In this document: positions 5,756 through 10,278 of the stretch, piece after piece
Layout of the letters: every line of letters begins with the position of its first letter
Position numbering within the stretch: the stretch's first letter is position 1
NCBI RefSeq assembly: GCF_000015965.1
Contig: NC_009091.1
Location: 868,001 to 932,000 of the forward strand
Source: Prochlorococcus marinus str. MIT 9301
GTDB lineage: Bacteria > Cyanobacteriota > Cyanobacteriia > PCC-6307 > Cyanobiaceae
DNA length: 64,000 nucleotides
Direction: 5' to 3'
Made by a program: the position numbers and the translations under genes
The notes under the pieces: generated by a model
The model's database searches: none
Told to the model about the DNA's origin: nothing
Seen by the model: only the letters and a program-made list of their open reading frames with translations

Positions 5756-6340
5756 ATGAGCTTAAGAGTTGGCCAAGAAGCACCAGACTTTAGTGCTACA
5801 GCAGTATATGATCAAGAGTTTAAGGAGATTACACTTTCAGGTCTAAGAGGTAAATGGGTTGTTTTATTTTTTTACCCACTAGATTTTACATTTGTATGTC
5901 CTACTGAAATCACTGCATTTAGTGATAGATACCAAGATTTCTCAGCTCTTAATACGGAAATACTTGGGGTATCAGTTGATAGCAAACACTGTCATTTAGC
6001 TTGGATACAAACCCCAAGAAATGAAGGTGGAATTGGTGATATTAACTATCCGTTGGTTTCTGACTTAAAAAGAGAAATTTGCCAAGCGTACAATGTTCTT
6101 AATGATGATGGAGAGGCCGATAGAGGGTTATTTCTTATCAATCCCGAAGGAATAGTTATGCATACGACTGTTAACAAGGCTCCAGTAGGAAGAAATGTTG
6201 ATGAAACGCTAAGGATTCTTCAAGGTTATCAATACGTTGCCGCAAACCCAGATGAAGTATGCCCAGCGAACTGGACCCCGGGTGAGAAAACAATGTTAGA
6301 GGACCCCAAAGGTAGTAAGGAATATTTTTCTGCGTTATAG
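5756..6340 (+). CDS. 2-Cys peroxiredoxin (AhpC/TSA family)
   Basis: Thiol peroxidase reducing H2O2 and alkyl hydroperoxides, cytoplasmic. The 194 residues match typical 2-Cys enzymes. The peroxidatic Cys48 is in FTFVCPTE and the resolving Cys169 in EVCPANW. The GGIG (91-94) and C-terminal YF (EYFSAL) motifs are those associated with overoxidation-sensitive Prx. It starts at ATG, about 45 nt after a strong promoter, and appears monocistronic. In cyanobacteria these enzymes draw electrons from thioredoxin/NTRC. Confidence 0.93.
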
Positions 6341-6355
6341 AAGGATTAGAAACAT

Positions 6356-7108
6356 TTAAATAAGTATTGAATAGTAAATAATTATAAAAAAATAAAAAAT
6401 TAATATATTCAAAAAGGTCATAACTTCCCCAATTTGGGGTTTTGGCACGATCCAATCGCTTAAATTAGTTTTATATGATATGAAAGACCACGTATAAAAA
6501 GAAATTTCTATGGCGACTAGGATAAAAAGATTAATTAAATTTAAATCATTTAAACCAAAATATCTATAAATATGAAACTGATCATCAACACTAATATTAT
6601 TAATTTGAAGATGCCAAAAATAAAAAGAAATCAAAAAAAAATTTACCAATATTATTTTTTTTAACAGAAACCTAGATTTTTTAAAAATTAATAAAATAGA
6701 AATAAAAAATATGAAAAAAATTAATTGTGGTATATCCGGTTTTGGTATATTAATTCCTTCAAGAAATAAATTAAATATAAGATCAAAATTTATATATATA
6801 TAATCAGCTATTAAGTAAGAAAGAAATATTAAATTTATTGCTACTAAGATTAATAATCTTTTTCCTTTAATTATTTTTATACTTTGGATTTTTTCATTAT
6901 TAAAACTATAGTATGTATAGTTTTTTAAAGAGTTTAAACACACCAAAGATGGGCATATTGCACCGCTCAAATAGTAAAGGATTGAATAAAAGGAAATATC
7001 ATTAATATTTAGTGAATACAAATTAAACCATTGTTTTTGTACAAATGGAAAAATAAGCAAAAATGAAAGCGTAACTAATAACTTCGTTGTATTGTTTTTA
7101 ATTAACAA
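6356..7108 (-). CDS. Polytopic membrane protein of unknown function
   Basis: A 250-residue, very Phe/Ile-rich protein with about seven predicted membrane segments (for example LLVTLSFLLIFPFV, LLILVAINLIFLSYLI, LIFFIFFISILLIF, IILVNFFLISFYFW). I do not recognise the family; no CAAX-protease EExxR motif was seen. It lies directly downstream of the FtsH-like gene on the same strand (33-bp gap) and is probably cotranscribed, so a functional tie to that membrane protein is possible. Confidence 0.7.
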   Translation of the reverse strand: MLIKNNTTKLLVTLSFLLIFPFVQKQWFNLYSLNINDISFYSILYYLSGAICPSLVCLNSLKNYTYYSFNNEKIQSIKIIKGKRLLILVAINLIFLSYLIADYIYINFDLIFNLFLEGINIPKPDIPQLIFFIFFISILLIFKKSRFLLKKIILVNFFLISFYFWHLQINNISVDDQFHIYRYFGLNDLNLINLFILVAIEISFYTWSFISYKTNLSDWIVPKPQIGEVMTFLNILIFYFFIIIYYSILI

Positions 7109-7140: not shown

Positions 7141-8895
7141 TCAAACTTTCAACAATTTAGAAGTTGTTAATTTAAAAACTTTTTTATCTATAGTTTCTTG
7201 ATTTAAAAGTATATCAACTAATTTATCTAGTAAGACTCTATTTTTTTTCAATATTTTTATTGAATTATTTAATGAAATTTTAGAAATATTTATGATTTCT
7301 TTATCTATTTTAGAACTCGTATTTTCAGCTATGAGAGGCTTTCTTCTAAATAATCCATCTCCTAAATACATTTCATTATTATCAGAATCCATTGAAATTG
7401 GACCAATAATTGAAAATCCATATTTTGTAACCATTTCCCTTACGATGTTTGTCGCATAAGAGATATCATTTAAGGAGCATTGTGTAATTTCGCCTTCACC
7501 AAAAACTATCGTTTCTGCTGCTCTCCCAGCTAGAGCGATTTCAATTTTTGAAAATAATAATTTTTTTGAAATCAAGCCACTAGAAATCACATCTTCGTCA
7601 GGACATAATTTTGTATATCCTCCTATAGATCCAGATCTAGGTAAGATCGTAATTTTATCAACTGATTCAATTCCATTTCTTACCGCAGATACAATCGCTC
7701 TACCTACCTCGTTATAAGCAATAATTTTTTTCATATTTGGAGAAGTTATTAATGAACTTCTCAGGCCGATGGTAATTTTATCAAGAGCATTTTCTATATG
7801 AAGATCACTGATTAATTTAGATTCATCTCTAGCACAGTGAATAGCACTCTCGTTCATCAAATTTGCAAGATCTGCTCCCGAAAATCCAACTGTTCTAGAT
7901 GCCCAATATGCTAAGTCAACTTCGCTTGAAAGTGGTTTAGAAAGTGAGTGAACTGAAAGAATTTTTTTTCTTCCATCTAAATCTGGAAGCATTACTTCAA
8001 TTTTTCTGTCAAATCTACCTGGTCTTAATAATGCTGCATCCAAAATGTCTGGTCTATTTGTTGCTGCTAAAACGATAATCCCAGAATTATCAGCAAAACC
8101 ATCTAATTCAGTTAGAAGCTGATTCAGGGTTTGTTCTCTTTCATCATTTCCACCTCCGATCCCAGACCCTCTTTGCCTACCAATTGAATCAATTTCATCA
8201 ATGAAAATTATACAAGGAGATTTTTCCTTAGCCTTAGAGAATAGATCACGAACTCGGCTTGCTCCAACACCAACAAAAAGTTCTACAAACTCTGATGCCG
8301 ATATTGAGAGAAAAGGCACTCCTGATTCACCAGCAATTGCTTTAGCTAATAATGTTTTACCTGTTCCTGGGGGGCCTATTAGAAGAACACCCTTTGGAAA
8401 TTTTGCCCCAAGATTTTCAAATTTCTTTGGTTCTTTCAAGAATGTTATAACCTCTTTTAATTCCTCAGCGGCTTCAGGGACGCCAGCTACATCATCGAAT
8501 CTCGTTTCTACATCATCAATAGTTACAAATTTAGCTTGATTTTTGGTAAAACCAAAAGCTCTGGAAGCCAATTTTGATGTACTCCTCAAGATTAATACTA
8601 TAGCTAATATGAAAAGCAGGAAAAGACTTATTGAAGCAAATGAATTAGCAGCTGAGGCTTCTTTTCTACTATTGTTAATTGTTAGATCTAACTTATTTTC
8701 AGTTGCCTTTTCAAGGATTAATTGATCGTTGTAGAGGATAGGTATTTTAGATTTATCGCCATTTTTATACAGGACATCAATTTCTCTCTGCCTAGGATAG
8801 AAAAATATTGATTCTATTTTCCCCGTCTCTATATCTTCTAGAAGATCCGAATAACTTGATTTAGAATCTGAATATGAGAATTTTGATCTAAACAC
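7141..8895 (-). CDS. FtsH-like AAA+ membrane protein lacking the zinc-protease motif (pseudoprotease)
   Basis: A 584-residue FtsH homologue. The order is: FtsH extracytoplasmic domain (about 15-75, beginning [12 protein letters not shown]), one membrane segment (about 86-104), AAA+ domain with Walker A GPPGTGKT (174-181), Walker B FIDE (231-234) and an SRH region ending RPGRFDR (291-297), then the peptidase-like domain. Where active FtsH has HEVGH, this protein reads NEVGR (395-399; codons at 7713-7699), so both zinc-binding histidines are gone while Glu396 and the third-ligand Asp477 remain. The first transmembrane helix is also missing. The GTG start lies just after an in-frame stop, so no longer form exists. 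Likely an ATPase without proteolysis, like plant FtsHi. Confidence 0.9.
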
Positions 8896-9026: not shown

Positions 9027-9197
9027 ATGGCTGTACCAAAGAAGAAAAAATCAAAGAGCAAAAGGAACCAAAGGCACGCTGTTTGGAAAGGGAAAGCAGC
9101 AATAGCAGCTCAAAAAGCTATATCTTTAGGTAAATCAGTTTTAACTGGGAAAGCTCAAGGATTTGTTTATCCTATTGAAGAAGAAGAAGAAGAATAG
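9027..9197 (+). CDS. rpmF: 50S ribosomal protein L32
   Basis: A 56-residue basic protein beginning [24 protein letters not shown], the characteristic L32 N terminus, and ending in an acidic EEEEEE tail. It is a component of the large subunit near the peptidyl-transferase exit region. The cyanobacterial/plastid form lacks the zinc cysteines found in some bacteria. It is divergent from the FtsH-like gene. Confidence 0.95.
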
Positions 9198-9200
9198 CTT

Positions 9201-9527
9201 TTAAGAGCCTAATTTAAATGCTTCAAGTATAACGGCATAAATTGCACCAATTCTTAATTTATCAACTACGGTCCATAGATAATAAAACTTTGAACTTGCT
9301 GCAGGTTTAATTCTTATAATGATTTCAATAAAAACAATAATTATTGGGACCATTATCAATTCATTTTTACCTTCAGATATAAATTTTGTAATAAAATTTG
9401 CGAACAAAAAATAACCTGTCAAAACAGAAATTAGACTAATAGATTTTGTTCTCCAAGTATCACTTAGAAAACCAAAAAATAAATTATTTAACTGGTTGGT
9501 AATCCTTGAAAAATTAGTTTTTTGCAT
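9201..9527 (-). CDS. Ycf20-like protein (DUF565)
   Basis: A 108-residue membrane protein with two or three hydrophobic segments (SISLISVLTGYFLFANFI, LIMVPIIIVFIEIIIRI, then a C-terminal helix). The terminal EAFKLGS is the hallmark ending of Ycf20 proteins, and TWRTKSISLISVLTGYF matches the family's N-terminal WR..S..L.S...GFFL pattern. In plants a Ycf20 homologue affects non-photochemical quenching; the cyanobacterial role is unclear. It overlaps the preceding HAD gene by 14 bp and is cotranscribed with it. Confidence 0.85.
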   Translation of the reverse strand: MQKTNFSRITNQLNNLFFGFLSDTWRTKSISLISVLTGYFLFANFITKFISEGKNELIMVPIIIVFIEIIIRIKPAASSKFYYLWTVVDKLRIGAIYAVILEAFKLGS

Positions 9528-10278
9528 TACTAAAAGACACTAAATAATCACTTAGAAAGTTATAGTCAACATATGATTTTTTTAGTTTAGGGCCTTTAAT
9601 TACATTTGCCACATTATTCTCATCACCAAGGCTGTCTAAAATACAATTTAATTTAATATTTTCCTCAAGAACAATTGGGATATTTGAATGAACAAAAATT
9701 GTAGGCAAATTAGCTGCCAGGGAAGATTTCAATCCCGGACTGGAGTCTTCAAAGACAATTGAGTTGTTTATATTTATACCACTTAATTGGATTGCCTTTA
9801 AATATGGTAATGGATTTGGTTTCTTTAATTCAACGTCTTCACTTGAAATAATGAACTCAAAAGGGTTAAAGCCATTGAAAAGATATTCAACAAGAAGATT
9901 TACTTGAATTCTTGAACTTGAAGTAACAATAAATTGTCTAACTTTTTTTTTATGTAATTCATTTATTAATCTAAAAACACCAGTTTTTAAACTAACGCAA
10001 TTTTTTTTTATATTTTCTAGATAATGAAACTGCTTTGTTTCATGAATTTTGAGAATTAAATCTTCTGAGAAATCATCTTTATTAGATTTAGCGAAATAAG
10101 AAATCCTATTTTTGCCCCCATTTATCTTTAGAAGTTGTATGTATTTTTTAGTGTCCCAATTCCAATCAATTCCAAGGTCATTGAAAGCATTATTAAAAGC
10201 AGGTAAATGGGCCTCTAATTCAGTATTTGCGATGGTACCATCCAAATCCCAATAAACACCCTCAAGATTCGTCACCAA
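9514..10278 (-). CDS. HAD-superfamily phosphatase, CbbY/phosphoglycolate phosphatase-like
   Basis: A 254-residue haloacid-dehalogenase hydrolase. Motif I is DLDGT with nucleophile Asp11 and Asp13; motif II is the FIVTSSSR segment (about 116-123); motif III/IV is the KPNPLPYL...FEDSSPGLKSS region. The helical cap between motifs I and II resembles the CbbY/beta-phosphoglucomutase group, so a sugar-phosphate substrate is plausible. The exact substrate cannot be told from sequence. It is followed by ycf20 with a 14-bp overlap. Confidence 0.85.
   Translation of the reverse strand: MVTNLEGVYWDLDGTIANTELEAHLPAFNNAFNDLGIDWNWDTKKYIQLLKINGGKNRISYFAKSNKDDFSEDLILKIHETKQFHYLENIKKNCVSLKTGVFRLINELHKKKVRQFIVTSSSRIQVNLLVEYLFNGFNPFEFIISSEDVELKKPNPLPYLKAIQLSGININNSIVFEDSSPGLKSSLAANLPTIFVHSNIPIVLEENIKLNCILDSLGDENNVANVIKGPKLKKSYVDYNFLSDYLVSFSNAKN

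Follow-up and report, generated by a model that had tools for sequence, protein, structure and literature searches.

The zinc site of one Prochlorococcus FtsH homolog was lost a single time, in the ancestor shared by HL, LLI, LLII/III and two smaller lineages, and its AAA+ motor has been kept. The copy described here lies in a window of 64,000 nucleotides from the genome of Prochlorococcus marinus MIT 9301 (C1:868001-932000; Table 1), in which the original prediction had proposed a cyanobacterial FtsH pseudoprotease. This identification is upheld by the preserved motor, the dead zinc site and conservation far beyond one strain: of the 121 same-genus genomes sampled, 93 have the degenerate site, counted with the pattern NE[VAG]GR, each in exactly one gene. 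Overall, the findings suggest a role in the energy-driven handling of membrane proteins, no longer with cleavage.

Table 1. Features of the FtsH locus, numbered from the first letter of the window.
Feature	Position	Strand	Basis
FtsH pseudoprotease, 584 aa; FtsH1/Slr1390-type, "FtsH4" in Prochlorococcus numbering	7141..8895	-	ORF, Pfam AAA and M41, TIGR01241, clade placement
Single transmembrane helix, TM2 equivalent, about residues 85-103	8587..8643	-	Hydropathy scan
AAA+ module, residues 130-375; Walker A GPPGTGKT, pore loop and Arg fingers intact	7771..8508	-	Pfam, ortholog alignment, dN/dS
M41 domain, residues 384-574, full length without zinc site	7174..7746	-	Pfam, alignment, dN/dS
Degenerate zinc site NEVGR at the HEXXH position	7699..7713	-	Sequence, alignment to solved FtsH, 93/121 genus genomes
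Asp477 codon, third zinc ligand position, retained	7465..7467	-	Alignment to solved FtsH, paralogs, orthologs
Polytopic membrane protein, 250 aa, best read as what is left of a UPF0182 protein, its N-terminal membrane domain	6356..7108	-	Syntenic slot, profile-profile match, dN/dS
rpmF (ribosomal protein L32), divergent, limits the upstream region	9027..9197	+	Sequence; neighbor conserved in picocyanobacteria

A degenerate zinc site in an FtsH1-type protein

The FtsH open frame comprises 586 codons and is read from a GTG start codon; as originally described, an in-frame stop lies just 5' of it, a TAA two codons upstream. The protein matches the Pfam AAA+ (E = 1.5e-46) and M41 (E = 3e-44) families and reaches 647 bits with TIGR01241, above the cut-off of 600. 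Both Walker motifs (A and B), the second region of homology and the FVG pore loop are present, and the HEXXH signature of FtsH (M41) zinc metalloproteases is replaced by NEVGR. Alignment to solved FtsH structures places N395 and R399 at the two zinc histidine positions, with the catalytic Glu retained as E396. The predicted change from HEVGH to NEVGR (codons 7713-7699) was thus correct in coordinates, frame and strand, and the same alignment agrees with the further claim of intact AAA+ motifs and a kept third-ligand Asp (D477). Sequencing or assembly error, or chance, as the source of NEVGR is excluded by its recurrence in the same-genus genomes. The genome of MIT 9301, a high-light Prochlorococcus, is a single contig of 1,641,879 bp and contains three other FtsH genes, of type A, type B and FtsH4 type, and their zinc sites are all intact (HE[VA]GH).

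In a quick tree with long branches that included paralogs from other cyanobacteria and left out Slr1390 itself and the plant FtsHi sequences, the window FtsH joined a fourth clade of cyanobacterial FtsH, whose sister is type B, and by this placement is identified as the picocyanobacterial FtsH1-type (Slr1390-type) FtsH. The placement agrees with publications that assign Prochlorococcus FtsH4 to Synechocystis FtsH1 (Slr1390) (PMC6300248, PMC11262661).

Distribution and origin of the zinc site loss

NE[VAG]GR was present in 40 of the 42 near-complete genomes of the genus (completeness at least 90%), and no same-genus genome had more than three intact HE[VAG]GH motifs. Across the wider clade of HL, LLI, LLII/III and two smaller lineages, the second zinc His was missing in all 27 orthologs, vs. 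HE[VI]GH retained in all 28 picocyanobacterial orthologs outside it. The original prediction had proposed to check whether NEVGR is conserved within one ecotype; the spread of the loss over HL, LLI and LLII/III rules out an inactivation limited to one ecotype, and the residues differ by lineage. In HL the motif is NEVGR, rarely NEAGR or NEGGR. It is QIIGK in NATL-like LLI, NEVGK in MIT9211 with HEAGR in its sister, NEAGK, YEIGR, NEIGR or HEIGK in the SS120 group, and HQIGK or HEIGK in the genus g17, where the labels NATL-like, MIT9211 and SS120 are our presumed identifications of related genomes. Single genomes carry QQVGR (G088), RESAR (G027) and RNASK (G003). Besides G003, the QIIGK of the NATL-like loci (L163-L167) is the most altered motif among complete genomes. 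An alternative metal site in the inactive clade is unlikely, given QIIGK in LLI and RNASK in G003. We dropped an initial identification of the genus g10 as "MIT9313/LLIV" (rpo GC 62%); LLIV more likely corresponds to g34 (54% GC, 2.3-2.9 Mb), whose FtsH is active.

A genome of 1,751,080 bp, which we take to be that of SS120, holds one inactive FtsH with the site NEAGK. One "FtsHi" was counted in P. marinus SS120 by Mishra et al. (2019; PMC6460958), and it is almost certainly the same gene.

The inactive genomes formed one clade (SH-aLRT 99) on a species tree of 57 genomes built from RpoB, RpoC1 and RpoC2, and the inactive proteins formed one clade (support 96) on an FtsH tree built without the zinc-motif columns. 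One change is needed for loss of the zinc site on each tree; the species tree is the stronger argument for a single origin, because the FtsH1-type gene sits on long branches. The second His is replaced by R or K in every member of the inactive clade read on the alignment (and by K in G003), and the other positions of the site (first His, Glu, Asp) differ between lineages; the third-ligand Asp kept in the window FtsH is missing in several members. Since the first His survives in some members, the second ligand was probably the first to go, with the rest of the site decaying later and differently in each lineage.

Selection on the motor and protease domains

Among 39 HLII sequences, dN/dS was 0.037 for the AAA+ module, 0.065 for the N-terminal domain and 0.103 for M41. 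The inactive orthologs retain 94% of the AAA+ columns that are invariant in active orthologs vs. 77% of those in M41, and at roughly equal AAA+ identity their M41 identity is 0.40 vs. 0.55 for active proteins. All inactive copies keep both Walker motifs, the Arg fingers and the FVG pore loop, with minor variants only. Judged from these alignments, a strict AAA+ module with a looser M41 domain is the pattern of a live motor attached to a dead protease, not of a pseudogene.

The faster evolution of M41 would also fit a gene that has become vestigial as selection on it relaxed in these streamlined genomes and that is heading for loss. The gene is missing from one 99%-complete genome (G026), which has only three M41 proteins and none of FtsH1-type, and the most decayed copy, in G003 (site YRNASK), scores only 99 bits against M41. 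The FtsH1-type gene is therefore not universally required, as one lineage has lost it. However, the frame is full-length in all clade members read, with AAA+ motifs in each, the gene is retained by 40 of 42 near-complete HL genomes, and the AAA+ dN/dS is low; we consider decay toward loss improbable. The same numbers run counter to a loss confined to this one strain with relaxed AAA+ selection, the case that would have spoken against the pseudoprotease reading.

Membrane topology

FtsH proteins usually have two transmembrane helices, and some members have one. One helix was predicted in the window FtsH and two in all three of its paralogs in the genome, so the observation that the first membrane helix (TM1) is missing holds. 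As a component of the inactivation it was rejected: a hydropathy scan of active picocyanobacterial orthologs likewise found only the helix adjacent to the AAA+ module. As TM1 is lacking in active orthologs too, its loss goes back to an ancestor of the picocyanobacteria and is separate from the inactivation. Some Synechococcus have long open frames upstream of the gene, which by inspection of the sequence are antisense to the divergent rpmF.

Outside the picocyanobacteria (loci L311-L335), FtsH1-type orthologs start with a hydrophobic stretch that closes with A-x-A-Q; it resembles a cleavable Sec signal peptide and not a permanent TM1. Cleavage, if it occurs, would leave a mature FtsH1-type subunit with a single membrane pass in other cyanobacteria as well. 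For the window FtsH, we infer a single-pass protein with the N-terminal domain outside and the AAA+ module in the cytoplasm.

Neighboring genes and the UPF0182 remnant

The gene order HAD - DUF565 - rpmF upstream of FtsH is conserved across picocyanobacteria. On the other side of the locus, a 2-Cys peroxiredoxin gene (5756-6340) converges on the membrane gene downstream of FtsH. Peroxiredoxin, DUF565 and HAD-phosphatase (the last two at 9201-10278) form a block in most picocyanobacterial loci examined.

In active lineages, a full UPF0182 gene (906-941 aa) lies downstream of FtsH on the same strand, directly adjacent in most of the genomes examined and within 3.5 kb in the rest; an example of the linkage is L181:5778-8558, with equivalents in other loci. 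Genomes of the inactive clade have in this position a protein of 248-277 aa with five to eight predicted helices; in G003 it has 265 aa and overlaps the FtsH stop. In the LLI lineages (NATL-like, L163-L167) no remnant membrane gene was found between FtsH and the peroxiredoxin. Full-length UPF0182 was present in 29 of 29 active-lineage genomes vs. none of 26 others, namely 25 of the inactive clade and G026. The latter lacks both the FtsH1-type gene and UPF0182, an independent joint loss outside the inactive clade.

The short LL proteins align end to end with UPF0182 residues 1-282, with a profile score of 133.7 (reversed control 5.1; best of 20 block-shuffled controls 40.8). HL and LL membrane proteins match each other with a score of 63.3 (reversed control 16.9), and HL proteins match UPF0182 directly more weakly, at 38.0 (controls at most 20.1). 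A Pfam match to UPF0182 was not found for the window gene or its homologs. In the predicted structure of UPF0182, the remnant ends where the seventh helix ends, and the window gene is best read as the stripped seven-helix membrane domain of UPF0182. The UPF0182 gene was cut to its N-terminal membrane domain on the same branch as the loss of the zinc site. In HLII, 37 of the 39 sequences carry a full-length remnant, and its dN/dS is 0.32; two HLII loci, L042 and L035, have shorter versions (204 and 53 aa), which could be contig ends or real truncations. In every high-light genome compared, the downstream membrane gene was found in synteny, a point that the original prediction had proposed to check. 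The original suggestion of a polytopic membrane protein as a possible partner was right about the neighbor's polytopic nature, but by profile comparison it is not a generic membrane protein; it appears to be the UPF0182 remnant. A fold search with the predicted UPF0182 model (pLDDT 66) gave no match below E 0.4, and no function for UPF0182/COG1615 was found in a literature search.

Possible function

We consider the chances about even that the whole is best explained by a single loss of the zinc site, after which an ATPase-only FtsH1-type protein was kept as a motor subunit, likely in mixed rings. The window FtsH would still assemble into an FtsH ring and, powered by ATP, thread proteins of the membrane or associated with it through the pore. 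Most likely it would share a mixed hexamer with the genome's own type A FtsH (C1:230798-231382), which is active; the pseudo-subunit would supply motor power, assembly and substrate choice, and cutting would be left to the partner. A mixed ring with type A is favored because Synechocystis FtsH1 functions as a heterocomplex with FtsH3 (type A), and because rings can work with part of their sites active, as attributed to Zhang et al. (2010) where that work is cited in PMC6019477. The reduced constraint on M41 weighs against this explanation.

Alternatively, the dead subunit could be a dominant-negative regulator, displacing active type B from rings and thereby lowering or retuning type A proteolysis. 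The active type B subunit is its closest paralog, and the type A partner is expected to be common to both types (PMC11287208); even so, we regard such a role as very improbable.

A stand-alone ATP-driven chaperone or dislocase, a homohexamer acting on or with the UPF0182 remnant without proteolysis, like the Ycf2-FtsHi motor, is possible though rather unlikely. It would fit UPF0182 being the ancestral same-strand neighbor in all active-lineage genomes examined, its truncation in the clade where the protease died, the lack of both genes in G026, and the presence of chloroplast FtsHi motors among the top fold matches. However, LLI genomes keep the FtsH without the remnant, so the pair is separable, and the remnant evolves fast. 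The FtsH-UPF0182 link, drawn from conserved adjacency, one shared branch and the joint loss in G026, is suggestive; as the zinc site was lost in a single event, it amounts to one coincidence plus one joint loss. Under a bolder version, which we put forward tentatively and think unlikely, FtsH1 and UPF0182 would be a functional pair in picocyanobacteria, and one Prochlorococcus ancestor would have shed the protease site and the large UPF0182 C-terminal domain together. A protease system would thereby have become a non-proteolytic machine for membrane proteins, made up of a minimal ATP-driven membrane motor and a membrane module, which parallels Ycf2-FtsHi but arose independently of it.

The four Prochlorococcus FtsH have all been treated as proteases with functions parallel to those in Synechocystis, FtsH4 being listed under "cell viability" (PMC11262661). 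With TIGR01241 above its cut-off, automated annotation is expected to name the protein a zinc metalloprotease, which would be wrong in most lineages of Prochlorococcus. Prochlorococcus is the ocean's most abundant photosynthesizer, and conversion of FtsH to a motor has been studied so far mainly in chloroplasts. The present clade offers a case of a motor without protease in a free-living bacterium, on a defined branch with active sister lineages for comparison, as well as a clue from the genomes to what UPF0182 may partner with.

Comparison with known systems

FtsHi-type pseudoproteases of plants and algae are already known. The published count of one in SS120 covered that strain only and gave no motif, distribution, neighbor or origin. 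The literature searched yielded no account of fixation across the clade, of a single origin, of the way the site decayed, of the history of TM1 or of a link to UPF0182; its scope did not extend to subscription journals, so that earlier notice is possible.

By orthology, the window FtsH corresponds to Synechocystis FtsH1 (Slr1390), the type next to type B; it differs from Slr1390 in its destroyed zinc site and in lacking the N-terminal signal-like hydrophobic segment. The linkage of FtsH1-type genes to UPF0182 is seen in picocyanobacteria only, unlike in the other cyanobacteria checked. Compared with the UPF0182 family (PF03699), the remnants (250-277 aa) align from residue 1 to about 284 and retain the LSDW motif, but the C-terminal part of ~640 residues is missing.

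The plant and algal FtsHi proteins and the Ycf2-FtsHi import motor (PDB 8xku, 8xqw) share with the window FtsH the fold, an intact AAA+ module, an inoperative HEXXH and a photosynthetic context, and the FtsHi subunits serve an ATP-driven motor without proteolysis. The original comparison with plant FtsHi therefore holds for the inactive HEXXH and intact AAA+, but apparently not for kinship. A published grouping (PMC9020784) assigns plant FtsHi for the most part to the i-AAA-related Group 3; going by this grouping, the plant sequences being outside our tree, the window FtsH appears unrelated to them by descent, and because it nests in the cyanobacterial FtsH1-type clade its origin is apparently separate. 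Unlike plant FtsHi, it has one helix, belongs to a free-living bacterium and has no known Ycf2 partner.
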